Assembly (NCBI GenBank): GCA_016190245.1
Contig: JACPQY010000056.1
Span: forward strand, 1 to 13,891
Source of the DNA: Nitrospirota bacterium
GTDB lineage: Bacteria > JACPQY01
Length of the DNA: 13,891 nt
Direction: 5' to 3'
Numbering within the stretch: the stretch's first letter is position 1; the number at the start of each line of letters is the position of its first letter. This document shows, one piece after another, positions 1 to 12,149 of the stretch. The translations under genes were made by a program, and so were the position numbers. The notes beneath the pieces are model-generated. The model was not told the origin of the DNA. It did no database searches and saw only the letters and a program-made list of their open reading frames with translations.

Positions 1-444
1 CTTGAACAGCAGGTCCCCCAGGAGGTGGCCGATCTGCGGGACGTTCAGGCGAGCGAGATCCACGACGTGTTCGGCGTGTCGGAAGACTCGGTGGCGGGAG
101 ATGGCGATTTCGCCGTGCGGGTGGGGACCACGCTCATGAAGGAACCCGAGCCCGAGTGGGTGCCGCTGCCACTTGTATCCTCCCTGCCGGCCTTCAAGTC
201 GAAGGTGGAACCCGCGTATCCCGAGGCGGCGCGGCGCGACGGGATCGAGGGCCTCGTCATCCTGGAGGTCGGCATTGACGAGAACGGCCGGGCGTTCGAG
301 GTGACGGTTGTTCAATCCGGGGGGCATGGGTTTGATGAGGCGGCGGTGGAGGCGATGAAGAACTCGGTCTTCTACCCCGCCAAGCGGGGCGATCAGCCGG
401 TGGCCGTTCGTCTGCGCATTCCCGTGAGGTTCTCCCTGCGGTGA
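1..444 (+). CDS. TonB family protein, C-terminal part (5' end outside window)
   Basis: The reading frame is open from base 1, so the gene starts upstream. A GTG at 25 is in frame but has no special claim to be the start. Only 147 codons are visible. The last ~80 residues form a TonB C-terminal domain: a P-x-YP-x-x-A-R-x-x-G-x-x-G motif (VEPAYPEAARRDGIEG), then strand-rich sequence with V-x-V-x-x-D-x-x-G, a helix with FDEAAVEA, and an F-x-P-A motif, ending in VRFSLR. In the family this periplasmic domain contacts the TonB box of outer-membrane receptors and transmits energy from an ExbB/ExbD motor. The part before it is acidic and proline-containing, as expected of the periplasm-spanning linker. 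The N-terminal membrane anchor is not in the window. The stop overlaps the start of the receptor gene by 4 nt, which implies translational coupling and suggests that this TonB serves that receptor. Confidence 0.9.
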   Translation, partial: LEQQVPQEVADLRDVQASEIHDVFGVSEDSVAGDGDFAVRVGTTLMKEPEPEWVPLPLVSSLPAFKSKVEPAYPEAARRDGIEGLVILEVGIDENGRAFEVTVVQSGGHGFDEAAVEAMKNSVFYPAKRGDQPVAVRLRIPVRFSLR

Positions 445-2933
445 GCCGCCGCGCCCCCTTCCTCTTTTGTTGCGCCCTCCTGTTCGGGCCGCTCGTGCGC
501 CCGGCGGCGGGTGAAGAAGAAACCTCGTCGAAACAGGACGCCGGCCCGCCCACAACCGCCACCCTTCTCGGTCTAATCCGGGAGAACGGCACGCGCAAAG
601 CGGTGGCCGGGGCGACCGTGACCTTGATGGGCCCGAACAACTTCATGCTGACCGCTTTCACGGAAGATGACGGTTCGTACCGGTTCGATGGTGTCCCGCC
701 GGGGAGCTACCAACTTTCCGTCCTGGCCGCCTCCTATGTGCTCGAGAAACCCAAGACGGTCGAGGTGCGCGCGCGGGCGAAGCCCACCGAGGCCAACTTT
801 TTCCTCACGCCGGACGTCGCGGGCGGGCTCTTCCTCGAGGTGGAAGCCGATCGGGAAAAGCGATCCGTCTCCACGCAAAAGGTGCAGAAGGAAGAGATCC
901 GCCACGTCCCGGGCACGCTGGGCGATCCGCTCCGGGTCATCCAACTCATGCCGGGAGTCACGGTCATGAACGAGGTGTTTGCCGACCTGATCGTGCAGGG
1001 AGGCGGGCCGGACGAAAACCGGATCTGGCTCGATCGCACGCCCATGGCTTTTCCCTTCCACCTCCTGAATTCTTCGAGCGTGCTCTCCGGCGAGTTCGTG
1101 GAGACGCAGACGCTGCACGCGGCGGGATTCGGCGTGCAATACGGGAACGCGACGGGCGGGGTGCTCGAGATCACCTCGTCGGATGGGAAAGAGGAGGGGA
1201 TCGCGGGCCACGGGAGCCCCGTGATGGTCTGGGCCGATCAGGCCGAGAAGCTCACGGTCGGACGGACCGAGGGCAGCTTCCAGGCGGGCATGCGGCCAGC
1301 CGGCGCGTTTCTCGGTTCCGGGCGGTACCTCTTCCCCCCCCCCACGATCCCAGCCGTGCGCATCCAGGAGGGCGGCCCCACCTTTCAATTCACACCGATC
1401 GGTTGGGACTACCAGGGCAAGACCACCTCCAACGCGGGGGGTGCGGGGACGGTCAGGCTGCTCAGCTACGGCTCTTTCGACGAGGAGAAACAAACCATTA
1501 ACTACAGCGGACCCGTTCCGCGGGCAGGTCAGGAGTTGACGATCAGCTTCGATTTCTTCCAACAGAAGGAGTTCCACACGCAAGGCGTCTTGTGGGATCT
1601 TCCGATGGGTTCCACCACCTCGCGGATGTCGCTTTATCGCACCGAGGCGATCGAGGACTTCAAAGTCGGCATGCCCCTCCTCAAGCTCGAGGATTTCATC
1701 GATCGGCGCGAGACGGACCGCGGATTCGGCGGGTGGGAGGAGCTGGAGATCCGGCTGGGGGGACACCAGACTCTGTTCCTGGGGACGCAGATCGAGAGGT
1801 TCACTTCCAACGTCGCCGGCGTCGCCCCGATCTTCCTCGCGGAGGAGGGGACGGGCGTCCGCCCGCCGGAGGAAATGGGAATGGCCCCCCCGAGGCGTCA
1901 GACTTCTCAGGAGGACGAGGAGGAAGAAGAAGAGGACGAGTTCGAAGCCCTCACTTTCGAGCCTTTCAAGGTCGAGGAAACGTACGACACGTTCGGCTAC
2001 TACGCGGAAGACAAGATCCGGCTTTTCGATCGGCTCACCTTGGCCCCGGGCCTCCGGTTCGAGCGGACCACGCTCCTGTGGAAGAATCCCAACCAACTCC
2101 ACCGGGACGCGCTGATGCCGCGATCCTACAGCACCCTCCAGATCTTCAAGACCACAAAGCTCCGGGGGGGGTGGGGCATCTACCGGCTCTTCCCAGAGGT
2201 GGACCAGGCCACGGATCAAGGGGAGGTGGACGAGGAGGGGAACGTCACAAGAAAGTTCGGCAATCCCTATCTCCTCCCCGAGCGTGCCGAGCATTTTGTT
2301 TTCGGGGTGGAACAGAGGCTGACCGACGCCCTTCGCGTAGAAGCGGACGTCTTCCACAAGCGCCTCAGCCGTCTCGTCGTGGGTGAGCCGGAGAGGAACG
2401 GCGGGAAGGGATTCGCGGAGGGTGCACAGTTCCTGCTGCGCCACGAGCTCACGCGCCGGTTCTTCGGCTGGATCTCATACTCCTACACGAAGTCCCGTCG
2501 CCGCCAGATCCGGTCCGGCGATCTCATCAAGACCTCCTGGGATCAGCCCCACGTCCTGAGCGTCGTCGGCAGCGTGAAGCTCACGCCCGAGTGGATCGTG
2601 GGCGCGACGTTCCGCTACACGAGCGGTTCCCCCTTCACCCCGATCTACAACGACGAGAAGCGTGATCCCGACATGGACGAGGACTTGGATGCGGATGCGC
2701 TTCCCACGGAGCCCAACTCGGGTCGGCTGAACGATTTCCACCGGCTGGATCTCCGCGTCGAGCGCGTCCAGCGGATCCGGTATGCGGAGGTGACGTTCTT
2801 CCTGGATGCCTTCAACGCGTACAACCGGAAGAACGAGATCTTCCGCATCCCGTCATTCGAGGATCCGAGCACGTATATCCCCCTCACGTCGGCCGGTCTC
2901 CTCGTCTATGGTGGGGTGGACGCGAGGTTCTGA
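441..2933 (+). CDS. TonB-dependent outer-membrane receptor with N-terminal carboxypeptidase-regulatory-like domain
   Basis: An 830-aa protein starting at GTG 441, with GAGG at 426-429 as a plausible ribosome site. Residues 1-24 are a Sec signal peptide (MSRR, hydrophobic core, cleavage near AAG/EE). Residues ~40-124 are a carboxypeptidase-regulatory-like beta-sandwich (AVAGATVTL, then T-x-D-x-G-x-Y-x-F-x-x-V-P-P-G-x-Y). Residues ~135-247 are the plug, with a V-Q-G-G-x-P-D-E-N-R-I-x-L-D core (185-198) and YGNATGGVLEI. The rest is a beta-barrel rich in alternating strands that ends GGVDARF; a terminal phenylalanine is the usual outer-membrane assembly signal. Residues 491-500 are ten consecutive acidic residues, probably in an external loop. 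Known family role: gated, TonB-energised import of a large or scarce ligand. The ligand cannot be read from sequence. The frame contains C10 and G8 homopolymers but is intact here. The next gene begins 3 nt after the stop. Confidence 0.92.
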   Translation: MSRRAPFLFCCALLFGPLVRPAAGEEETSSKQDAGPPTTATLLGLIRENGTRKAVAGATVTLMGPNNFMLTAFTEDDGSYRFDGVPPGSYQLSVLAASYVLEKPKTVEVRARAKPTEANFFLTPDVAGGLFLEVEADREKRSVSTQKVQKEEIRHVPGTLGDPLRVIQLMPGVTVMNEVFADLIVQGGGPDENRIWLDRTPMAFPFHLLNSSSVLSGEFVETQTLHAAGFGVQYGNATGGVLEITSSDGKEEGIAGHGSPVMVWADQAEKLTVGRTEGSFQAGMRPAGAFLGSGRYLFPPPTIPAVRIQEGGPTFQFTPIGWDYQGKTTSNAGGAGTVRLLSYGSFDEEKQTINYSGPVPRAGQELTISFDFFQQKEFHTQGVLWDLPMGSTTSRMSLYRTEAIEDFKVGMPLLKLEDFIDRRETDRGFGGWEELEIRLGGHQTLFLGTQIERFTSNVAGVAPIFLAEEGTGVRPPEEMGMAPPRRQTSQEDEEEEEEDEFEALTFEPFKVEETYDTFGYYAEDKIRLFDRLTLAPGLRFERTTLLWKNPNQLHRDALMPRSYSTLQIFKTTKLRGGWGIYRLFPEVDQATDQGEVDEEGNVTRKFGNPYLLPERAEHFVFGVEQRLTDALRVEADVFHKRLSRLVVGEPERNGGKGFAEGAQFLLRHELTRRFFGWISYSYTKSRRRQIRSGDLIKTSWDQPHVLSVVGSVKLTPEWIVGATFRYTSGSPFTPIYNDEKRDPDMDEDLDADALPTEPNSGRLNDFHRLDLRVERVQRIRYAEVTFFLDAFNAYNRKNEIFRIPSFEDPSTYIPLTSAGLLVYGGVDARF
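1334..1343 (+). repeat. C10 homopolymer inside the receptor gene
   Basis: Ten consecutive C residues encode a Pro-Pro-Pro stretch (YLFPPPT) early in the predicted barrel. The frame continues unbroken across it. Tracts of this length are prone to slipped-strand changes of ±1, which would truncate the receptor. Confidence 0.9.
2164..2171 (+). repeat. G8 homopolymer inside the receptor gene
   Basis: Eight consecutive G residues encode part of LRGGWG in the barrel. The tract is shorter than the C10 tracts and so is a weaker candidate for slippage. It is in frame in this copy. Confidence 0.85.
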
Positions 2934-2936
2934 ACG

Positions 2937-5900
2937 ATGCATTTCCTCCGGCGCCATACCCTTCTCCCCCTCACGCTCGCCGTCCTGCTCGCTGCCTGCG
3001 ACTCGAAAAACGACGATCCCGTTCCTCCCGTCGTCAAGGTCGGAACCGTCGAGGGGAAGGTGACCCCTCCGCTTGCGGGGGCGTTCGTCCGCATTGAAGG
3101 CACGTCCCTCGCCACCACCACGGACGCCGAGGGGAAATTCAGGCTCGATCTCGCCCCCGAAGGGCAGCAGCGACTCTGGGTGGAGCACCAAGACGAGGAT
3201 GGGGCCGTGCGCATGGCCCGCACGCGGATTGTGGTGGAGGCGGAGAGGGCGGGGGAAGTGGACGATGTGAAACTCTCGGCGGCCGGCTCGATCGTGGGCC
3301 ACGCACGTTTGAAAGAACGGGATCACCACGAGGACGTTGTGGTCACCGTCGCCGCAACCGCCGTGACCGCGCGAACGGACCGCAGCGGCGCGTTCTCGAT
3401 CCCCGCCGTTCCGGCGGACACGTATTCGCTCACGTTCTCCTACCCCGGTTTTGGGGTGGCTGTGCGCGAAAATATCGAAGTTCATTCGGGAGAGGCGGCC
3501 AATCTCGACTCGGTTGAACTGGAGGCCGAGGACGATCCCGACAGCAGCGTCATCTACGGGTCCATCAGGGGGAAGATCACGGACGGCGACGATCACGCCG
3601 TCGCCGGCGCCGTGGTGACAACGACTCCCGCCTCTGCGATCGCCGTGGCCGGGGAGGACGGCTCCTACACTCTGCTGGGGCTCTTCCCAGTCATCTACGC
3701 CGTGCGCGCCGAGAAAGAGGGATACGTCTCGCGCTCGGCCTACGTGGGGGTCAAGGTGGGGAAGATCGAGACGGCGGACATCGTTCTGAGCCGCCAGCTC
3801 CGCCCGGAGATCAAGGGGCATCGCGCCTTGCGGAACAGGCCGCCTGCCGTTTCGCTCCGCTGCCCCGAACTGGCACGGCCCGGCGAGGAAGTGCTCGTTT
3901 CGGTCCTGGCTCAGGATTCGGACGGGGATGTTGTGAAGCTCTCACCTTTCTCGGTCAGCCCGGGGATGTTGAATCCGCATTCGGGATCAACCAGGTGTCC
4001 AGACGTGGCGGGCGCCGCATGCGCTGAGGTTGACGTGACCGCGCCGGCCTCGGGCGGCCGCGTCGTCGTCGCTGTTTTGACCACGGACGGTCTTCTGGCC
4101 GCCGAGGCGCAGTGCGAGATACCGGCTCTGCCGACCCCCACGCGCCCGAACGCCTGTCCGCTTGTCGCGGTCTCGGGGCCGACGAGTACCGCACCGGGGC
4201 GCGCCTTGCGCCTCACCGCGGCTACCGCCGATGCGGACGGGGATCCCGTTCTCCTCGAGTGGAACGCCTCGGCCGGAGCCCTGGCCCGTCCGGCAGGTGA
4301 AACTGCGGTTTGGACCGCGCCACAGGTCCCCGGCACGTATGAAATTGCGGCGTGCGGCACGGACGGGTTCTGCCGGCCGCGCGCCTGCGGCTCGATCCGT
4401 GTCCGCGTGTCGCTTCCGGAAGGCGACACGCATGCCCCCGCCTGCGCCCTCAGCGGCCCGACGGCCGCGAAGGTCTTCGAGTCCGTCGCGCTCACCGTGT
4501 CGGCCACGGATGCGGACGGCGATGCGCTCGATTTCTCTCTTGCTGCATCCGGAGGGCGTCTTTCGGCGACGACCGGCTCTCTCGTCACGTGGACGGCCCC
4601 CGAGGACGCCGGGGCGTACGCCATCACGTGCATCGCCCGGGACATTCGCGGCGCGGAGGGAACCGCCCAACTCGGCATCGCGGTCGCCGCCCCCCCCCCG
4701 GGGAAAACCTGCCCGTCCCTGGTCGTCCGCGGTACGCCCGTTGCCTCACCGGGCGGAAAAGTCACCGTTGACTTTCACGCCACGGACTCGAATTCGCCCG
4801 CCGAAACGCTCACTGGCGGCTGCAGCGCGCCGTCGGGCGCCTACAATGTCTCCAACCTCTTTGCCACCGGCGGCGCGAACTTCGAGTGGACCGCACCCGA
4901 TGCTGCCGGCGCCTACTCGTTCCACTGCTTCGCTTCGAACCCCTTCTGCACGCGATCCTACGCGCACACGGTCTCGGTGGTTCCCGCGTCCCTTCCGCAC
5001 GTCGCCGTGAGTTGTTCCGAGAGCGTCATCACCGCGGGGATGACCACCACATGCACCGCCACGGCTTCGGAACAGGCCGACTTTCGATGGGCGGCCTCGG
5101 GAGGCTCCCTCTCCAATTCGACAGGCTCCGAGGTCAAGTGGACCTCGCCGTCCTGCGCGCGTTGCGGGGGCGCGTACACCCTGGTGGTGACCGGCGCCAC
5201 CGCCGACGGCAGGGCGAACGCGGCGCTCCACACGTTCACCGTCCTTACGGCCAACATCGCCCCCGAGGTGTGGCTGGACGGGCCGACGCCGGTCGAACCC
5301 GGCCGATCGGTTACGCTGCGCGCGCGCGCTGCCGACCAGGACGGATCCCCGGGGTCGCTCACCTGCACGTGGGAAGCAACCGGCGGTTTCCTCTTGAGCA
5401 TTGAGGGCTGCCAGGACCAGACATGGATCGCGCCGGCCGCGGTGGGGAGCCACACGGTGTGGATCACGGCCAGCGACACCGATCGGGCCGTCCGAACCTC
5501 GCTTTCCATCGCGGTCACGTCGGCTTCGGCGAACCAGAGGCCGTTGGGCCTTATCTCGGGGCCGGCCAAGGTGGAGGCCGGCGGCGCGATCGATCTGGAG
5601 TGCTCCGCGTCCGATCCCGAAGGCAAGACCGTGGGCTACGCTTGGAGTGCGACCGCCGGGACGTTCTCCTCGGCCACGGGGGAATCCGTCAGCGGGGGGC
5701 GCGCCCTCAGCCGGTGGACGGCGCCGAACACGTCCGCCAACGTCACGATCACCTGCACGATGCGCGATGATGCATCGCCCGCGAACGACACCGCCGTCAG
5801 CCATTCCGTCTCCGTCTCCGGCATCCCGTCCGGCCGCGCGTACGAGTGCGACGAGCACACGCTGGCGCTTTATCACTTCGATGAGACCTCGGGCGCCGTG

Positions 5901-8096
5901 GCGCGCGATGCGTGCGGGGGACGCGACGGCCTGGTCCAAGGGGCGGCCCTTGACCACGACGGGATGGCCGGCCGCGCCTTCTCCTTCGACGGTGTGGACG
6001 ATCTCGTGAAGATGGCGAGCGCCCCGAACCCCGGCGAGGACTCCCAGTTCACCCTCGAGGCATGGTTCAAGCTCAAGTGCGACTGTCCCACCTCCGGCTC
6101 CACCATCGTGGGCAAAGGGTCGTCGGGTGACAGCACCTTCGGCCTGAAGGCGACGGGCGCTCAACAGGCCCAGGCTTACCTCACGCCCATGGATCGCTCC
6201 TCCACCTCCACGGCCACCTCCGTGCGGACGGTCAACGACGACGCCTGGCACCATGCCGCCGCCGCCTACGACGGACGAACGCTCCGGCTCTACCTGGATG
6301 CGACAAAGGAGGCGAGCGTGAACGTGTTCAAGCTTGTCGGCGCCCGCACGTCAGCCCTCTTCGTCGGCGCTGCCGATCAGGACGAGAACGGCTCGGCCGA
6401 CGCCCTGTTCTTCAAGGGCTGGATTGACGAAATCCGCATCTCCGACATCGCGCGCGCTCCGCAGGAATTCAACGTGCTCCAGGTGAGTCGTGGCCTGGAG
6501 TGGGCAAAGCGAAGCGGTAACCCCTTTCTGAGCGCGAGCGCCGTTTGGGAATTGGCCAACGTGGCCTATCCGAGCGTGGTGAAGGTCTCGTCCAACTACC
6601 TTATGTACTATCAGGGCGGCACATCGCTGGTGGCGACGAACATCGGCGAGGCTACATCCACGGACTCGATCACTTGGAAGGCGCTCCCATTTCCCGTGGT
6701 CACGATCGGTTCGGCCGGCTCGTGGGATGCCGCGGCCGTCCAACAGCCGGCGGTGTACTACGACGGCGCGAAGTACTGGCTGTTCTACGGAGGCAAGAAA
6801 ACCCTTTCCGACAGCACCACCCAACTCGGCCTGGCCACCTCGACCAACGCCGTTGAGTTCACGAAACACGCCTCGAATCCCCTGTTGGGCGGTGGCGACT
6901 CGGCCGCGTGGGATGCGTCCACCTCCTTCCCCGGCAGCGTTGTCAAAGAGGGCGGCGAGTTCCGCCTCTACTACACGGGCTACGAGAAAGTAAACACGAA
7001 CCCCGGCAGGATAGGCTTGGCCACGTCCCCGGATGGCGTGGCATGGACCCGCTACGCGAGCAACCCGATTCTGTGGACGGGAGACACCGGACAGTTCGAC
7101 GATACGTCGGTTCAGAACCCGCGCGTGATCAAGGTGGGATCGCTCTGGTACATGTTCTACGAGGGCGTGAAAAAGAGCGGCGTGATGGCGATCGGCCTGG
7201 CCACGTCGCTCAACGGCGTGAACTGGACGAAGTCCGACTCGAACCCTGTGATGAGCGCGACGCACTCCTGGGAGGTCCTCAACCAGTTCCAGGGGACGAG
7301 CGTGATCCTGGATGGTGAACAGCTCAAGATGTACTACGCCGCGCTCACCTCCACGGGGGCCAAGATCGGCATGGCCTTCGAGATCCCCGAGGTGTTCGTG
7401 CCCGGTGGTCCCTTCGTGATGGGGAGCGATTCGGACGAAGGGCTGCCGACGGAGAGGCCCGAACATGTCGTTCGGCTCTCGCCGTACTGGATCGATCGCT
7501 TCGAGGTGACGAACGCCGCATACAAGGCGTGCGTGGACACGGGCCCTTGCAAAGATCCCGAAGGCGGCACCAACTCCGCCACGCGACCGGGCTACTTCGG
7601 CACCGCCAACTTCGATAACCACCCGGTGCTCCGGCTCACGTGGAAGCAGGCGGATCAGTACTGCCGTTGGATAGGAAAACGGCTGCCGACGGAGGCGGAG
7701 TGGGAGAAGGCGGCACGCGGCGCCTACCCGGACGAGCGCCTCTACCCCTGGGGCGATTCCGACCCTTCGTGTTGGCCGGCGAACCTCGAGGGCTGCATCG
7801 GCGACACCGAGCCGGTCGGCGCGCGGCCCGGCGGCCTCTCGCCCTTCGGCTTGTATGACATGGCGGGCAACATTGCGGAGTGGGTGGGCGACTGGGCGGA
7901 CATGGGGTTCTACGCGGTGACCCCTACGCACGATCCCGCCGGCCCGGCCACCGGCAGCCTCAAGCTCGTCCGCGGAGGCTCGTGGAATAGCGCCGATCCC
8001 AAGGTCACCGTCCGGGTCTCATACCGGGAGGCCTCCGCCGGGAGCGACACCTTCACGAGCGAGTTCGTGGGGTTCCGCTGCGCGCGGGATCCGTAA
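2937..8096 (+). CDS. Giant modular lipoprotein: regulatory-like, Ig-like, LamG, five-bladed propeller and FGE-like domains
   Basis: A 1719-aa protein. ATG 2937 follows GAGG (2924-2927) at 9 nt. Residues 1-21 form a lipoprotein signal peptide with lipobox LAAC (Cys21). Domains in order: three carboxypeptidase-regulatory-like beta-sandwiches (~36-115, 116-196, 206-286); seven Ig/PKD-like repeats (~302-960), six with a W-T-A-P-type motif (W459, W552, W651, W735, W830, W927) and several with a D-x-D-G-D probable calcium site (327, 432, 525); a LamG-like jelly-roll (~969-1182, ending in the typical GWIDEIRISD); a five-bladed propeller (~1187-1482) with five I-G-x-A-x-type repeats about 60 residues apart, resembling the GH43 fold; and an FGE-sulfatase-like domain (~1486-1719: GGPFVMGSD, RLPTEAEWEKAAR, YDMAGNIAEWVGDW, GGSW, GFRCA). 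The copper-site cysteines of true FGE are absent and no glycosidase triad is evident, so a binding or adhesive role is inferred. Location is probably the outer membrane, perhaps the cell surface. It is coupled to the receptor gene by a 3-nt gap. Confidence 0.9.
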   Translation: MHFLRRHTLLPLTLAVLLAACDSKNDDPVPPVVKVGTVEGKVTPPLAGAFVRIEGTSLATTTDAEGKFRLDLAPEGQQRLWVEHQDEDGAVRMARTRIVVEAERAGEVDDVKLSAAGSIVGHARLKERDHHEDVVVTVAATAVTARTDRSGAFSIPAVPADTYSLTFSYPGFGVAVRENIEVHSGEAANLDSVELEAEDDPDSSVIYGSIRGKITDGDDHAVAGAVVTTTPASAIAVAGEDGSYTLLGLFPVIYAVRAEKEGYVSRSAYVGVKVGKIETADIVLSRQLRPEIKGHRALRNRPPAVSLRCPELARPGEEVLVSVLAQDSDGDVVKLSPFSVSPGMLNPHSGSTRCPDVAGAACAEVDVTAPASGGRVVVAVLTTDGLLAAEAQCEIPALPTPTRPNACPLVAVSGPTSTAPGRALRLTAATADADGDPVLLEWNASAGALARPAGETAVWTAPQVPGTYEIAACGTDGFCRPRACGSIRVRVSLPEGDTHAPACALSGPTAAKVFESVALTVSATDADGDALDFSLAASGGRLSATTGSLVTWTAPEDAGAYAITCIARDIRGAEGTAQLGIAVAAPPPGKTCPSLVVRGTPVASPGGKVTVDFHATDSNSPAETLTGGCSAPSGAYNVSNLFATGGANFEWTAPDAAGAYSFHCFASNPFCTRSYAHTVSVVPASLPHVAVSCSESVITAGMTTTCTATASEQADFRWAASGGSLSNSTGSEVKWTSPSCARCGGAYTLVVTGATADGRANAALHTFTVLTANIAPEVWLDGPTPVEPGRSVTLRARAADQDGSPGSLTCTWEATGGFLLSIEGCQDQTWIAPAAVGSHTVWITASDTDRAVRTSLSIAVTSASANQRPLGLISGPAKVEAGGAIDLECSASDPEGKTVGYAWSATAGTFSSATGESVSGGRALSRWTAPNTSANVTITCTMRDDASPANDTAVSHSVSVSGIPSGRAYECDEHTLALYHFDETSGAVARDACGGRDGLVQGAALDHDGMAGRAFSFDGVDDLVKMASAPNPGEDSQFTLEAWFKLKCDCPTSGSTIVGKGSSGDSTFGLKATGAQQAQAYLTPMDRSSTSTATSVRTVNDDAWHHAAAAYDGRTLRLYLDATKEASVNVFKLVGARTSALFVGAADQDENGSADALFFKGWIDEIRISDIARAPQEFNVLQVSRGLEWAKRSGNPFLSASAVWELANVAYPSVVKVSSNYLMYYQGGTSLVATNIGEATSTDSITWKALPFPVVTIGSAGSWDAAAVQQPAVYYDGAKYWLFYGGKKTLSDSTTQLGLATSTNAVEFTKHASNPLLGGGDSAAWDASTSFPGSVVKEGGEFRLYYTGYEKVNTNPGRIGLATSPDGVAWTRYASNPILWTGDTGQFDDTSVQNPRVIKVGSLWYMFYEGVKKSGVMAIGLATSLNGVNWTKSDSNPVMSATHSWEVLNQFQGTSVILDGEQLKMYYAALTSTGAKIGMAFEIPEVFVPGGPFVMGSDSDEGLPTERPEHVVRLSPYWIDRFEVTNAAYKACVDTGPCKDPEGGTNSATRPGYFGTANFDNHPVLRLTWKQADQYCRWIGKRLPTEAEWEKAARGAYPDERLYPWGDSDPSCWPANLEGCIGDTEPVGARPGGLSPFGLYDMAGNIAEWVGDWADMGFYAVTPTHDPAGPATGSLKLVRGGSWNSADPKVTVRVSYREASAGSDTFTSEFVGFRCARDP
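4690..4699 (+). repeat. C10 homopolymer inside the first lipoprotein gene
   Basis: Ten consecutive C residues encode AAPPPGK, the linker between the third and fourth Ig-like repeats. The frame is intact. A ±1 change would release only the N-terminal third of the lipoprotein and remove the LamG, propeller and FGE-like domains. Confidence 0.9.
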
Positions 8097-8123
8097 GGCA
8101 TCAGCACAGCTTTGGCGGCTCTC

Positions 8124-8219
8124 TACCTCCCCCCACCCCTCCCTACAAAGGAGGGGAGTTGCACGGAGCAACAGCAGCTTCCTCCCCTTCGTAAGGGGAG
8201 GACAGGTGGGGTCGAGGTA
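8124..8219. repeat. Composite palindromic intergenic repeat (REP/MITE-like)
   Basis: This 96-bp element is nested inverted repeats. Outer arms are TACCTC (8124-8129) with GAGGTA (8214-8219), and CCCCACC (8131-8137) with GGTGGGG (8205-8211). Inside are two hairpins: CCCCTCC/GGAGGGG (8136-8142/8150-8156, 7-bp stem, 7-nt loop) and TCCTCCCCTT/AAGGGGAGGA (8180-8189/8193-8202, 10-bp stem, 3-nt loop). The first inner arm overlaps the outer arm by two bases, so the two folds compete. The C/T-rich, AAGG/CCTT-looped style matches dispersed intergenic palindromes seen in many bacterial genomes. No transposase gene and no clear target duplication are visible. There is no U-tract, so it is not a classical terminator, though it could affect mRNA stability or reduce read-through to the second lipoprotein gene. 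Confidence 0.75.
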
Positions 8220-8246
8220 CCCCCTTTCGCCGGACGTTCCCGGCTC

Positions 8247-11200
8247 GTGTACCTCGATCCCAACATCGTCTCCCGACCCGCACCCGCGCGACGCATCCTC
8301 GCCCCACTCGCCCTTGGCATCCTCCTCGCCGCCTGCGAGGAGAACGACCTTGGCGACCCTCTCACCGTCCGGACCGCGACGATTGTGGGCGAGATTGAGG
8401 AGGGCGGGAAGCCGGTGTCCAAGGCGACGGTCCGGATCGAGGGCACGAACCTGGAGACGCTCACGGGCGTGGATGGCCGCTTCCGCCTCGACCTCGTTCC
8501 TCCGGATGAAGAGGGGATCCTCGATGTCGAATACCAGGCGCCGGATGGAATTCACCGCAGGCGGAGGCAGACCGTGGACCCCGAGGCCGGGGAGGTCCTG
8601 GACGTCGGCACGGTCGCACTTGAGCGAACGGGATCGGTCTCGGGGATGGTCACGCGTGAAGGAGCTGCGCGGCACGGCGGGACGGATGTCTTCATACCTG
8701 GAACGTCGTTTTGGGTGCGAACGGGTTTGGACGGCGCGTTTGAGATTGCCCGGCTGCCCGGCGGGTGGTACAAGGTCGCCGCTCTCGTAACCGGTTACCG
8801 CGGTTTCGTTTCCGCCGAGTTCGAGGTGACCCCCGGCGAAACCACCGTGCTCGGCGCCGTCCAACTTCGGCCCGAGGACGAGGACGAGCCACGCGGCGAC
8901 GTGACGGGCCGGGTCATCAGTCCGATCGGCGTACCCCTCGAACACGCCATCGTGAGCCTCACCCCTAGCCGTGAGGCCGTCGTCACGGGCGAGGACGGGG
9001 GATACCGTTTTGAAGATCTGTACGCCACGGAATACCTCGTGCGCGCGGAACTCGAAGGCAAGATCTCGAACAGCGTGCGCGTCACGGTCGAGAAGGGCCA
9101 GACGATCACGGCCCATATCCCCCTCTACGCGCAGCCGGATCAGGACAAGCCCGGCCGGGCAGGCTGGAATGCCGCGCCAACCCTGCGCCTGGCGTGTCCC
9201 GAGTCCGTTGCCGCCGGGGGACATGCCGATCTCGTGGTCACGGCGCTGGACCCGGACGGGGACCCGGTCACACTTGGCGAGTTCGATGCTTCGGCCGGCT
9301 CCATCGCGATTGTCGGCGAGGGCGCAACGTGCGAGCCGGAGCCGGGCGGTGTGTGCCGCCGCGTGCGCTGGGTAGCTGGTGATCGCCCTGGAACCTATGA
9401 AATCTCCGTCACAGCAACGGACGGTCAGCTCACCGCGCGCGCCGTTTGCGAGGTGGTTGTGTCGAGCGCCCAATCCACGGCCAATCGTTGCCCTGCGGTG
9501 GCCCTCACGGGACCCACACGCGCGCTCGTGGGGCGCACCCTTGACCTCACCGCCGCAGGCTTCGACGCGGATGGAGATCCCCTTTCCTTCGCCTGGCTCG
9601 CCGCCGCAGGCCGCCTCGATCGGACGAGCGGGGAACGCGTGGTATGGACCGCTCCGCAGGAGGCGGGCGATTACGGGCTCTCCGCTTGCGTGACGGATGG
9701 TCTGTGCCCGCGCGCATGCACCGAGGTGAAGCTCGGGGTGGCCAAGGAGGATGAGAAGAAACTCTTCCCCGCCTGCTACGTCGCGGGTCCCTCCCTTGCC
9801 GCGGCCGGCTCGGCAGTCGGGTTGCGGGCGGTTACCTACGACCCGAATGCTTACCCGGTAAGCACGAGCTGGTCGGCCCAGAGCGGCGTGCTCTCCACGG
9901 CGGAGGGGGCCGCGGTGAACTGGATGGCCCCACAGCAACCCGGCGCCTACACCGTGAGCTGCCTCGCCCGCGCGGCGAGCGGCTCCACCGTGACGTGCCA
10001 GATCGGGATCATCGTCGTGGAAGCGGACGCGGCGAACGCCTGCCCGCTCGTGTCCGTCAGCGGGCCCTCAACCGGTGTGACGGGGATGCCCGCGCGGCTC
10101 GATTTCGAGGCCGAGGACGCCGACAACGGCCCTTCGCCCCTCACGCTCACGTGCCGCGCCCCGAACGGGATCTTCTTCACGCACGACATCGAGTCCGATG
10201 AGGCCGTGTTCGAGTGGCTCCCCTTCTTCGAGGGCGTCTCCACGTTCGTCTGCGAGGCGAGCGACGGGGCCTGCCTCATGACGCGGTACCACGCAATCTC
10301 GATTGCCGAGAAGCCCGACGATCTTCCCCCCATCGTGAGCCTCATCTGCACCGTGGATGAACTTCTGCCGGGCCAGACGACGGTCTGCATCGCGATCGGC
10401 GCCGACCCGGAGGACAAAGACGTCACCTTCAAGTGGTCTGCCCCTGCCGGTGCCTTCTCCTCGGCCGCCGGCGAGAGCGTGACGTGGACCGCGCCGCCGT
10501 CGAGCGGAGAATACGCTCTCACCGTGACCGGTGGAGACGGCGCCCATGAGACCCAGGCCTCCTCTGCGATTCGTGTGAAGCGGCCGGTCGCAGGACGTCT
10601 TGCCGGCGGATCGGGCGCCGAGGGCGTGTTGGGGGAGTACGCCTGCGATCCCAGCACCATCGCGCTGTATCATTTCAGCGAGACCGACGGCCCGCCCGTT
10701 CGGGACGCGTGTGGATCCCTTGACGCCACGCTCCGAGGGGCCTCGATCGCAGGACCGGGCCAACGCGGCAGGGGTTACTACCTGAACGGGGTCGAGGATT
10801 CCGTCGAAGTCGCTTCCGCTGCGGTGGCCGGTCTCGCCAACGGGACGATAGAGCTCTGGGTGAAGCCGGTGGATACCCGTCAGGACTACGACCTCCTCTA
10901 CCGCAAGGGAGAGGAGGGGAAATGGGATGTGCGAGTCCAGTACACCGTTCGAACGCAGTCATGGGGCCTGACATGGGACGACGATTGCTCGGGAGCGAGG
11001 CAGAAGCTCTCTCAAGACTCGGCCACGGATCCCGGCTACCACCACCTCGCCATCACGTGGGATGGGACGACGTGGAGAATGTATCAGGACGGCATCCTGG
11101 GCGTGGTCGCGCCCGATGTGTACGGTCTTGCGGAGCACGCAGAGCCGTTGGTGGTCGGCCGATCTGTTCCGGGCACGGAGAGACCTTTCCGGGGCTGGAT

Positions 11201-12149
11201 AGATGAGTTGCGCATCTCCGATCGCGCCCGCGAACCGGAGGAGTTCAGAGTCCTCGATCGGCCGGAATCGCCGCTCTGGTCGGCGAAGTCCAACATGCCC
11301 ACGGCCAGGAGCGAGGTGGGCCTCGGTCTCGCGGCAGGCAAGCTCTACATCCTCGGCGGGCGCACGGCCGGCACGCAGGCCACCGGAGCGAACGAGGTGT
11401 ACGATCCGCTGAAGGATTCGTGGGAGAAAAAGAAGGAACTGCCCACGCCACGATGGGACGCGGCCACCGCGGCGGTTGGGCGGCTCGTCTTCGTCATCGG
11501 GGGGGCGCGCTACAAGGACAAGCACGAGCTCCTGGCGAAGACGGAAGAGTACGACACGGATGCCGATACGTGGACGACCGGACCGAACTGGCCCAAGCCG
11601 CGTTTCGGTGCCGCGGCCGCATCCGTTGATCAACAGGTCTTCGTGGTCGGCGGATCGTCCGGGATTGATGGTGACGGGAATCTCGCTCGGCTCGATCGGT
11701 ACGAGCCCGTCACTCGCACGTGGTCCGAGCGCGCACCCATGCCCACCCCACGCTCACGTCCGGCCGTGGCCGTGCTGGGCGGCGAACTCTACGTGATCGG
11801 CGGCAAGACTGACACGGGTTTTTCGCCCGTCAATGAGCGCTACAATCCTCGCACAAATTCTTGGACGCCCCTCGCGGCCATGCCGACGGCGCGCAGGGCC
11901 GCCGCGGCGGTGGCGGTTAACGATTTCATCTATGTGATCGGCGGCGAAAACGACGCCACCCTCGACCTCGTCGAGGCCTACGATCCGGTGAAGGACACGT
12001 GGACCTCGCTCGATGAGTTCCCGGACGCGCGGTACGGACACGTTGTCGGCTCCTTCCAAAGATTCATTTCTGTGATCGGCGGTCGCAACGCCGATTCCAT
12101 CCTGTCGAGCGTCCAACAGGGCTTCCTCCTCCCTCCCTCGCCGGAGTAG
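8247..12149 (+). CDS. Modular lipoprotein: regulatory-like, Ig-like, LamG and six-bladed Kelch propeller domains
   Basis: The frame is open from a TTG at 8112, but that start lies before the palindromic repeat and would put the lipobox near residue 75. GTG 8247 gives a normal lipoprotein signal peptide (basic n-region with RR, core LAPLALGILLA, lipobox LAAC, Cys30) and a 1300-aa protein. No strong ribosome site precedes it. Domains: three carboxypeptidase-regulatory-like modules (~45-126, 127-208, 217-296); five Ig-like repeats (~310-777) with W-T-A-P-like motifs and D-x-D-G-D sites (335, 440); a LamG-like jelly-roll (~799-1003, with GWIDELRISD); and a Kelch propeller (~1010-1290) with six GG doublets (1037, 1085, 1135, 1185, 1232, 1278), E-x-Y-D/N-P and W motifs. 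The first ~1000 residues are collinear with the preceding lipoprotein, so it is a tandem paralogue whose C-terminus was exchanged. No enzyme active site is recognised; ligand binding at the outer membrane is inferred. Confidence 0.85.
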   Translation: MYLDPNIVSRPAPARRILAPLALGILLAACEENDLGDPLTVRTATIVGEIEEGGKPVSKATVRIEGTNLETLTGVDGRFRLDLVPPDEEGILDVEYQAPDGIHRRRRQTVDPEAGEVLDVGTVALERTGSVSGMVTREGAARHGGTDVFIPGTSFWVRTGLDGAFEIARLPGGWYKVAALVTGYRGFVSAEFEVTPGETTVLGAVQLRPEDEDEPRGDVTGRVISPIGVPLEHAIVSLTPSREAVVTGEDGGYRFEDLYATEYLVRAELEGKISNSVRVTVEKGQTITAHIPLYAQPDQDKPGRAGWNAAPTLRLACPESVAAGGHADLVVTALDPDGDPVTLGEFDASAGSIAIVGEGATCEPEPGGVCRRVRWVAGDRPGTYEISVTATDGQLTARAVCEVVVSSAQSTANRCPAVALTGPTRALVGRTLDLTAAGFDADGDPLSFAWLAAAGRLDRTSGERVVWTAPQEAGDYGLSACVTDGLCPRACTEVKLGVAKEDEKKLFPACYVAGPSLAAAGSAVGLRAVTYDPNAYPVSTSWSAQSGVLSTAEGAAVNWMAPQQPGAYTVSCLARAASGSTVTCQIGIIVVEADAANACPLVSVSGPSTGVTGMPARLDFEAEDADNGPSPLTLTCRAPNGIFFTHDIESDEAVFEWLPFFEGVSTFVCEASDGACLMTRYHAISIAEKPDDLPPIVSLICTVDELLPGQTTVCIAIGADPEDKDVTFKWSAPAGAFSSAAGESVTWTAPPSSGEYALTVTGGDGAHETQASSAIRVKRPVAGRLAGGSGAEGVLGEYACDPSTIALYHFSETDGPPVRDACGSLDATLRGASIAGPGQRGRGYYLNGVEDSVEVASAAVAGLANGTIELWVKPVDTRQDYDLLYRKGEEGKWDVRVQYTVRTQSWGLTWDDDCSGARQKLSQDSATDPGYHHLAITWDGTTWRMYQDGILGVVAPDVYGLAEHAEPLVVGRSVPGTERPFRGWIDELRISDRAREPEEFRVLDRPESPLWSAKSNMPTARSEVGLGLAAGKLYILGGRTAGTQATGANEVYDPLKDSWEKKKELPTPRWDAATAAVGRLVFVIGGARYKDKHELLAKTEEYDTDADTWTTGPNWPKPRFGAAAASVDQQVFVVGGSSGIDGDGNLARLDRYEPVTRTWSERAPMPTPRSRPAVAVLGGELYVIGGKTDTGFSPVNERYNPRTNSWTPLAAMPTARRAAAAVAVNDFIYVIGGENDATLDLVEAYDPVKDTWTSLDEFPDARYGHVVGSFQRFISVIGGRNADSILSSVQQGFLLPPSPE

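Follow-up and report, generated by a model that had tools for sequence, protein, structure and literature searches.

A putative Nitrospirota ton operon with a TonB-dependent receptor and two giant multi-domain lipoproteins

We analyzed a stretch of 13,891 bases of a Nitrospirota bacterium, i.e., one whole contig, hereafter called the window. On its + strand, the 3′ part of a tonB gene is followed by genes for a TonB-dependent receptor (TBDT), two giant lipoproteins and an unrelated ABC1-type kinase (PF03109, 4.8e-62). The first four genes recur in the same order in a sister genome, each of the two genomes has one confident TonB, and homologous receptors adjoin a lipoprotein gene repeatedly elsewhere. 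As the best explanation, we tentatively propose that the main ton operon of this lineage (exbB-exbD-tonB) reaches with its 3′ part into the window, where a resident receptor and two giant lipoproteins are encoded with it.

Results

Gene order and junctions in the window

The reading frames of tonB and the receptor overlapped by 4 nt (GTGA), and lipoprotein 1 began 3 nt after the receptor. Both junctions were read in the window sequence and agree with the initial annotation. Because base 1 is the contig start, tonB is truncated in the window and its 5′ part lost. Promoter and terminator scans of the window gave nothing above chance. The features are collected in Table 1.

Table 1. Features of the window with coordinates, strand and supporting matches
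Feature	Coordinates	Strand	Evidence
tonB 3′ part, TonB C-terminal domain	1..444	+	PF03544 4.7e-21
TonB-dependent receptor, 830 aa	441..2933	+	PF00593 3.5e-15; AF2 model; Foldseek
Receptor N-terminal extension, CarboxypepD_reg, residues 42-122	564..806	+	PF13620 1.1e-11
Receptor acidic loop, 40 residues, 15 Asp/Glu; predicted extracellular loop 5	1833..1952	+	strand map
Lipoprotein 1, 1719 aa; signal peptide MHFLRRHTLLPLTLAVLLAA, lipid Cys 21	2937..8096	+	sequence; domains
Lipoprotein 1 stalk: three CarboxypepD_reg (approximate limits)	3048..3794	+	PF13620, 3 stretches, 9e-29
Lipoprotein 1 PKD/Ig-like domain series (approximate limits)	3834..5816	+	PF00801 1.8e-11, PF17963 9.3e-6
Lipoprotein 1 LamG / concanavalin A-like lectin domain	5991..6467	+	PF13385 1.6e-19
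Lipoprotein 1 glycosidase-type beta-propeller (GH43/32/117/130-like)	6519..7376	+	PF04041 8.5e-12, PF00251 3.3e-10
Lipoprotein 1 FGE/SUMF1-like (FGE-sulfatase-like) C-terminal domain	7389..8087	+	PF03781 8.7e-55
Interspersed repeat between lipoprotein genes, outside coding unit	8118..8235	.	14 own-genome matches
Lipoprotein 2, ~1300 aa, probable GTG start; lipobox LAAC, lipid Cys 30	8247..12149	+	sequence; domains
Lipoprotein 2 stalk: three CarboxypepD_reg (approximate limits)	8361..9125	+	PF13620, 3 stretches, 1.1e-25
Lipoprotein 2 PKD/Ig-like domains (approximate limits)	9144..10751	+	PF00801 1.3e-10, PF17963 3.4e-10
Lipoprotein 2 LamG domain	10788..11243	+	PF13385 5.2e-20
Lipoprotein 2 Kelch propeller	11286..12146	+	PF01344 2e-49

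Lipoprotein 2 had been annotated as a paralogue of lipoprotein 1, and the two proteins indeed matched each other over about 750 residues (37% identity) and in a LamG region (38%). Its annotated start at TTG 8112 is probably wrong, as the 118-bp segment between the two genes is a genomic repeat with full or partial matches and a lipoprotein signal peptide, MYLDPNIVSRPAPARRILAPLALGILLAAC, is encoded from GTG 8247 onward, which is probably the true start. The halves of the repeat (about positions 2-43 and 62-99) also occurred separately, suggesting a palindromic or two-part element.

The gene set is conserved in a sister genome

The second of the two phylum genomes compared (G001) belongs to the same family, but to another genus, and is 97% complete (the window's own assembly is 85% complete). 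One of its contigs (C14) carries the complete set exbB-exbD-tonB-receptor-lipoprotein 1-lipoprotein 2. Since homologous genes stand in the same order, we conclude that the gene order of the window is not due to chance. The initial annotation had asked if exbB and exbD lie upstream; in the sister genome both were found directly 5′ of tonB (PF01618, 2.8e-32, and PF02472, 8.2e-26, respectively), which there encodes a full-length TonB of 211 aa (L063:17787-18422). An lpxC gene (L063:15855-16706) lies directly 5′ of exbB. The junctions in the sister genome are equally tight, i.e., the end of tonB reaches 4 nt into the receptor gene, lipoprotein 1 directly adjoins the receptor, and the two lipoprotein genes meet in TGATG with one base in common. 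In the window's own genome, exbB and exbD were not found; we rejected a true absence, given that the contig start cuts tonB and that 15% of the genome is missing from the assembly.

Between the two genomes, TonB was 71% identical (over the part present in the window), the receptor 66.5%, and lipoproteins 1 and 2 were 54.7% and 51.3% identical, respectively. Within the receptor, the plug (region 151-250) was the best-conserved part with 90-92%. In lipoprotein 1, conservation was higher in the propeller (60-68%) and the FGE-like domain (63-80%) than in the stalk, where identity ranged from 34-56% and was mostly below 50%. Lipoprotein 2 is followed by a malic enzyme gene on the opposite strand in the sister genome versus the kinase gene in the window; because the genes beyond differ, the conserved block ends with lipoprotein 2. 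The giant lipoprotein form is known from these two genomes only.

The operon TonB is probably shared with other receptors

We searched both genomes for TonB_C domains and for receptors. One TonB_C domain per genome scored above the cut-off, compared with two PF00593 receptors in the window's own genome and five in the sister genome, where one receptor is followed by genes that we take, from reading their sequences and without a family search, to be BtuF-like and CobU-like. Such neighbors would be expected of a vitamin B12 receptor, which also needs TonB. The TonB of the operon therefore probably serves other receptors of the cell too. A dedicated TonB was hence rejected, and the description of the unit as self-contained, made in the initial annotation, is not supported. 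The sister genome moreover has one further TonB-like protein, below the threshold, and two copies of ExbD, one of them inside the ton operon. The second ExbD/TolR homologue and the sub-threshold TonB-like protein (L182 and L181, contigs C4 and C6) perhaps belong to a Tol system.

The receptor is predicted to be a complete TBDT

The plug family PF07715 matched the window receptor weakly (0.016, below the cut-off). We built an AlphaFold2 model from a 36-sequence alignment (mean pLDDT 81), in which a plug and 22 barrel strands were predicted, with periplasmic turns of two to five residues. Best Foldseek matches of the model were PfeA, PiuA, PqqU and YncD, with FepA among the further matches, and the alignments of 750-800 columns span plug and barrel. 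The predicted fold and topology are those of a complete TBDT. A candidate TonB box, LFLEVEADREKRSV, precedes the plug and aligns with LEVLVEAE and YETVIRSE of relatives; it was matched by no model. Three of the predicted extracellular loops are both long and acidic: loop 5 with 15 Asp/Glu, loop 7 with 7 and loop 10 with 11. Loop 5 was disordered in the model (low pLDDT) and is acidic in the sister genome as well. A ligand or partner of this receptor may thus be cationic.

Giant lipoproteins carry lectin, propeller and FGE-like domains

A lipobox, LAAC or AAAC, was found by pattern in both window lipoproteins and in both sister-genome homologues. The LamG and propeller domains seen by the initial annotation were recovered in Pfam searches (Table 1). 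Lipoprotein 2 shares the stalk and LamG plan of lipoprotein 1, but has a Kelch propeller as its head. For the propeller of lipoprotein 1, the PDB matches were 3r4y (1.7e-8) and 4ak5 (2.7e-7), and its matches to glycosidases of the GH43/117/130-like type were partial and shifted between blades. Designed SAKe proteins and Kelch-like protein 20 were the top PDB relatives of the Kelch propeller (best 60 of 111 matches). Neither the Pfam scan nor the PDB searches with the propellers (for Kelch, the best 60 of 111) gave a match to the BtuG/XusB family (DUF4374). SusD (PF07980) was absent from both genomes, as had been noted for the unit, with a positive Bacteroides control, and the lipoproteins had no SusD match.

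The C-terminal FGE-like domain of lipoprotein 1, which the initial annotation had left unmentioned, has GldK (NCBIfam, 1.8e-29), PorK and PvdO among its named relatives. An enzymatic function of the FGE type was rejected for this domain because the Cys pair is missing: LCHDSYC of FGE, with cysteines that we take to be the active-site pair, aligns with NSADPKV in the window and with NDAEPKQ in the sister genome. As the pair is lacking in both genomes, the domain is, judged from its sequence, probably a binding module.

The kinship with GldK/PorK and PvdO also bears on where the lipoproteins reside. They might face the periplasm, as GldK and PorK do, and have a scaffolding role, either around the receptor or on peptidoglycan. 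We consider this very improbable, since the periplasm would offer little room for mature proteins of such length, and LamG domains, glycosidase-like propellers and Kelch propellers on long stalks are more usual outside the cell.

A small Ig-like lipoprotein adjoins homologous receptors

A contig search with the window receptor alone gave no matches. With a ten-receptor alignment, we searched GTDB genomes and took the best 80 named loci among the matches listed, so that the counts below describe this sample. Neighboring genes were annotated by HMMER; gene starts are approximate because genes were called with our own script.

Besides the window pair, 86 receptors were listed, and a lipoprotein of one family was encoded directly downstream of 46 and directly upstream of four. 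The small lipoprotein typically has about 300 aa and two Ig-like domains; most members had 279-429 aa (two were truncated at contig ends), and the gap to the receptor was usually -4 to +3 nt. The initial annotation had raised the possibility that homologous receptors stand without lipoproteins. Among the matches listed, this applies to Poribacteria (none of 22 loci with the small lipoprotein), but the other loci, mostly from Myxococcota, had it in 50 of 64 cases, and so did 21 of 28 receptor clusters at 50% identity outside Poribacteria. The order tonB, receptor, lipoproteins thus recurs in its giant form in the sister genome, and with the small lipoprotein in many Myxococcota. An exbB gene lay within four genes upstream at 15 small-lipoprotein loci among the matches listed. 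At these small-lipoprotein loci, the gene two places downstream was homologous in 0.3% of cross-cluster pairs versus 44% for the lipoprotein, a figure that is partly circular because loci were chosen for having the lipoprotein. At four loci (L103, L121, L124, L148) the lipoprotein gene is directly upstream of the receptor; L103 has two divergent pairs.

Pfam gave no match for four members of the small family apart from a weak PKD match in one, and NCBIfam none for the two members tested. A model (pLDDT 89.8) showed Ig-like beta-sandwich domains. Since its Foldseek matches were generic Ig, FN3 and cadherin folds with low TM-scores, we draw no function for the small lipoprotein from them.

By phmmer, 44 of 88 receptors had a TonB_C domain fused to the N-terminus; the window receptor has no such fusion. 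Examples from Myxococcota are L070:8232-10940 and L071:6019-8637, and some loci have a separate tonB as well. The model of the myxochelin receptor MxcH (NF038079) covers the same fused N-terminal arrangement.

Relation of the giant to the small lipoproteins

An HMM of the small family matched the Ig region of lipoprotein 1 in the sister genome (6e-15, four-sequence search) and in the window (1.8e-4, among 958 proteins). Profile comparison of the giant Ig regions with the small family gave E-values of 4.8e-5 and 3.8e-4, compared with 0.19 for a propeller control. As the homology concerns one Ig-like domain, it holds at the domain level and does not imply common ancestry of the whole proteins.

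In the receptor tree, a long branch placed the window pair with receptors of Pseudomonadota, which are accompanied by the small lipoprotein, and with receptors of Poribacteria, Nitrosomonadales and genome G064, which are not. A second receptor of both phylum genomes fell inside the Myxococcota clade and is accompanied by a small lipoprotein. In the window's own genome, this second receptor (L066:7750-10887, contig C63) has its small Ig-like lipoprotein 3 nt downstream, followed by a 186-aa protein and a FadL-like outer-membrane protein (PF03349). The receptor of L120, labelled Comamonas sp. KCTC 72670, grouped beside that of Myxococcus vastator (L123), and the label or assembly may be wrong. 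As far as sequence comparison goes, the window unit is probably an enlarged, duplicated form of the Myxococcota receptor/Ig-lipoprotein pairing.

The tree position also touches on a reading in which the two giant proteins would be adhesins of the cell surface or components of a matrix, encoded in one operon with the receptor without taking part in transport. Most close tree relatives of the window receptor are without a lipoprotein neighbor, the stalk-plus-lectin and Kelch architecture suits adhesion, and with 1300-1700 aa the proteins are far above known TBDT caps. We nevertheless regard this reading as rather unlikely, because tight junctions in both genomes and pairing in 21 receptor clusters speak for a functional link.

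Discussion

Lipoprotein partners of TBDTs at the cell surface are best known from Bacteroidota and Neisseria. In Bacteroides, the seven-bladed propeller lipoproteins BtuG (BtuBG, vitamin B12; PMC10404256) and XusB (XusAB, xenosiderophore; PMC13142918) cap their TBDTs. A propeller lipoprotein beside a TBDT is hence not new in its logic, and the window resembles these systems in that the receptor is directly followed by propeller lipoproteins (Kelch and glycosidase-type). The initial annotation knew of no named system with this composition; BtuBG and XusAB are precedents for the propeller lipoprotein, but the domain make-up differs. Theirs is one single-domain propeller lipoprotein, whereas the window has two giant multi-domain proteins with LamG and an FGE-like domain in addition, and the operon includes exbB-exbD-tonB. 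With SusCD, the window shares a TBDT with an N-terminal CarboxypepD_reg extension followed by a lipoprotein; in contrast to SusCD, the SusD fold is missing. The Myxococcota pairs have a homologous receptor with a directly adjacent lipoprotein, often with exbB-exbD-tonB upstream. They differ in that their lipoprotein has about 280-430 aa and two Ig-like domains, and in that the receptor often has a fused TonB_C.

Myxococcus xanthus is known to have gene clusters that combine a complete Ton system with a receptor, and there the TBDT Oar is needed, with its Ton system, for secretion of PopC (PMC6434023). Oar is likewise a CarboxypepD_reg TBDT beside a complete Ton system, but it secretes, is a longer protein and stands in a different context. 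The window receptor might accordingly be an exporter like Oar, with the Ton motor driving protein, possibly these lipoproteins, to the surface. The common N-terminal domain and the position of the lipoprotein genes directly downstream would fit. However, Oar exceeds typical TBDTs by 300-400 residues (PMC6434023), compared with 830 aa in total for the window receptor, no sequence feature is known to tell exporters from importers (PMC6434023), and a neighboring cargo gene is no evidence of export. Export is hence distinctly improbable in our view.

We favor, with due reserve, a mechanism in which the lipoproteins capture a ligand at the surface and TonB then drives its import through the receptor. 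TonB, the receptor and both lipoproteins would be made together, from one transcript as the head-to-tail coupled junctions suggest. Both lipoproteins would be anchored in the outer membrane by their N-terminal cysteine, and the three CarboxypepD_reg domains with the Ig-like run would form a long stalk that bears the LamG and propeller heads, in lipoprotein 1 also the FGE-like head, outward. At the cell surface, the heads may bind the ligand, conceivably a glycan or glycoconjugate, before passing it to the receptor, which would import it when TonB pulls the plug. By analogy, the unit would work like BtuBG, XusAB or SusCD, with non-homologous lipoproteins. Capture and import are favored because both phylum genomes have the same set with coupled junctions, the receptor model is a complete TBDT, lipoboxes are present and the heads of lipoprotein 1 better conserved than its stalk, 50 of 64 loci outside Poribacteria show the pairing, and propeller caps have precedents. 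The reading is weakened because the FGE-like lipoproteins GldK/PorK (T9SS) can work in the periplasm, because the giant form occurs in two genomes and its Ig link is weak and at the domain level, and because the long branch of the window receptor places it close to lipoprotein-free receptors.

On a wider scale, the receptor family and its adjacent lipoproteins could represent a widespread, unnamed class of two-component outer-membrane transporters, centered on Myxococcota with further occurrences in other phyla, and often with its own exbB-exbD-tonB; in the phylum of the window, the partner would have grown into two giant surface proteins with multiple heads. We rate this proposal as possible, short of probable. 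We came across no name or description of the Myxococcota pairing in the literature searched, which is no proof of novelty; the wide receptor/Ig-lipoprotein pairing in myxobacteria, newly found here, thus appears to be unnamed. Its adjacency in 21 clusters among the matches listed, mostly from Myxococcota, suggests a capture-and-import class in these bacteria. In M. xanthus, the TBDT MXAN_0821, which adjoins the TonB gene MXAN_0820, resisted deletion (PMC6434023). If MXAN_0821 is the orthologue of the Myxococcus cassettes, the lipoprotein partner would be a lead to the essentiality of this transporter.
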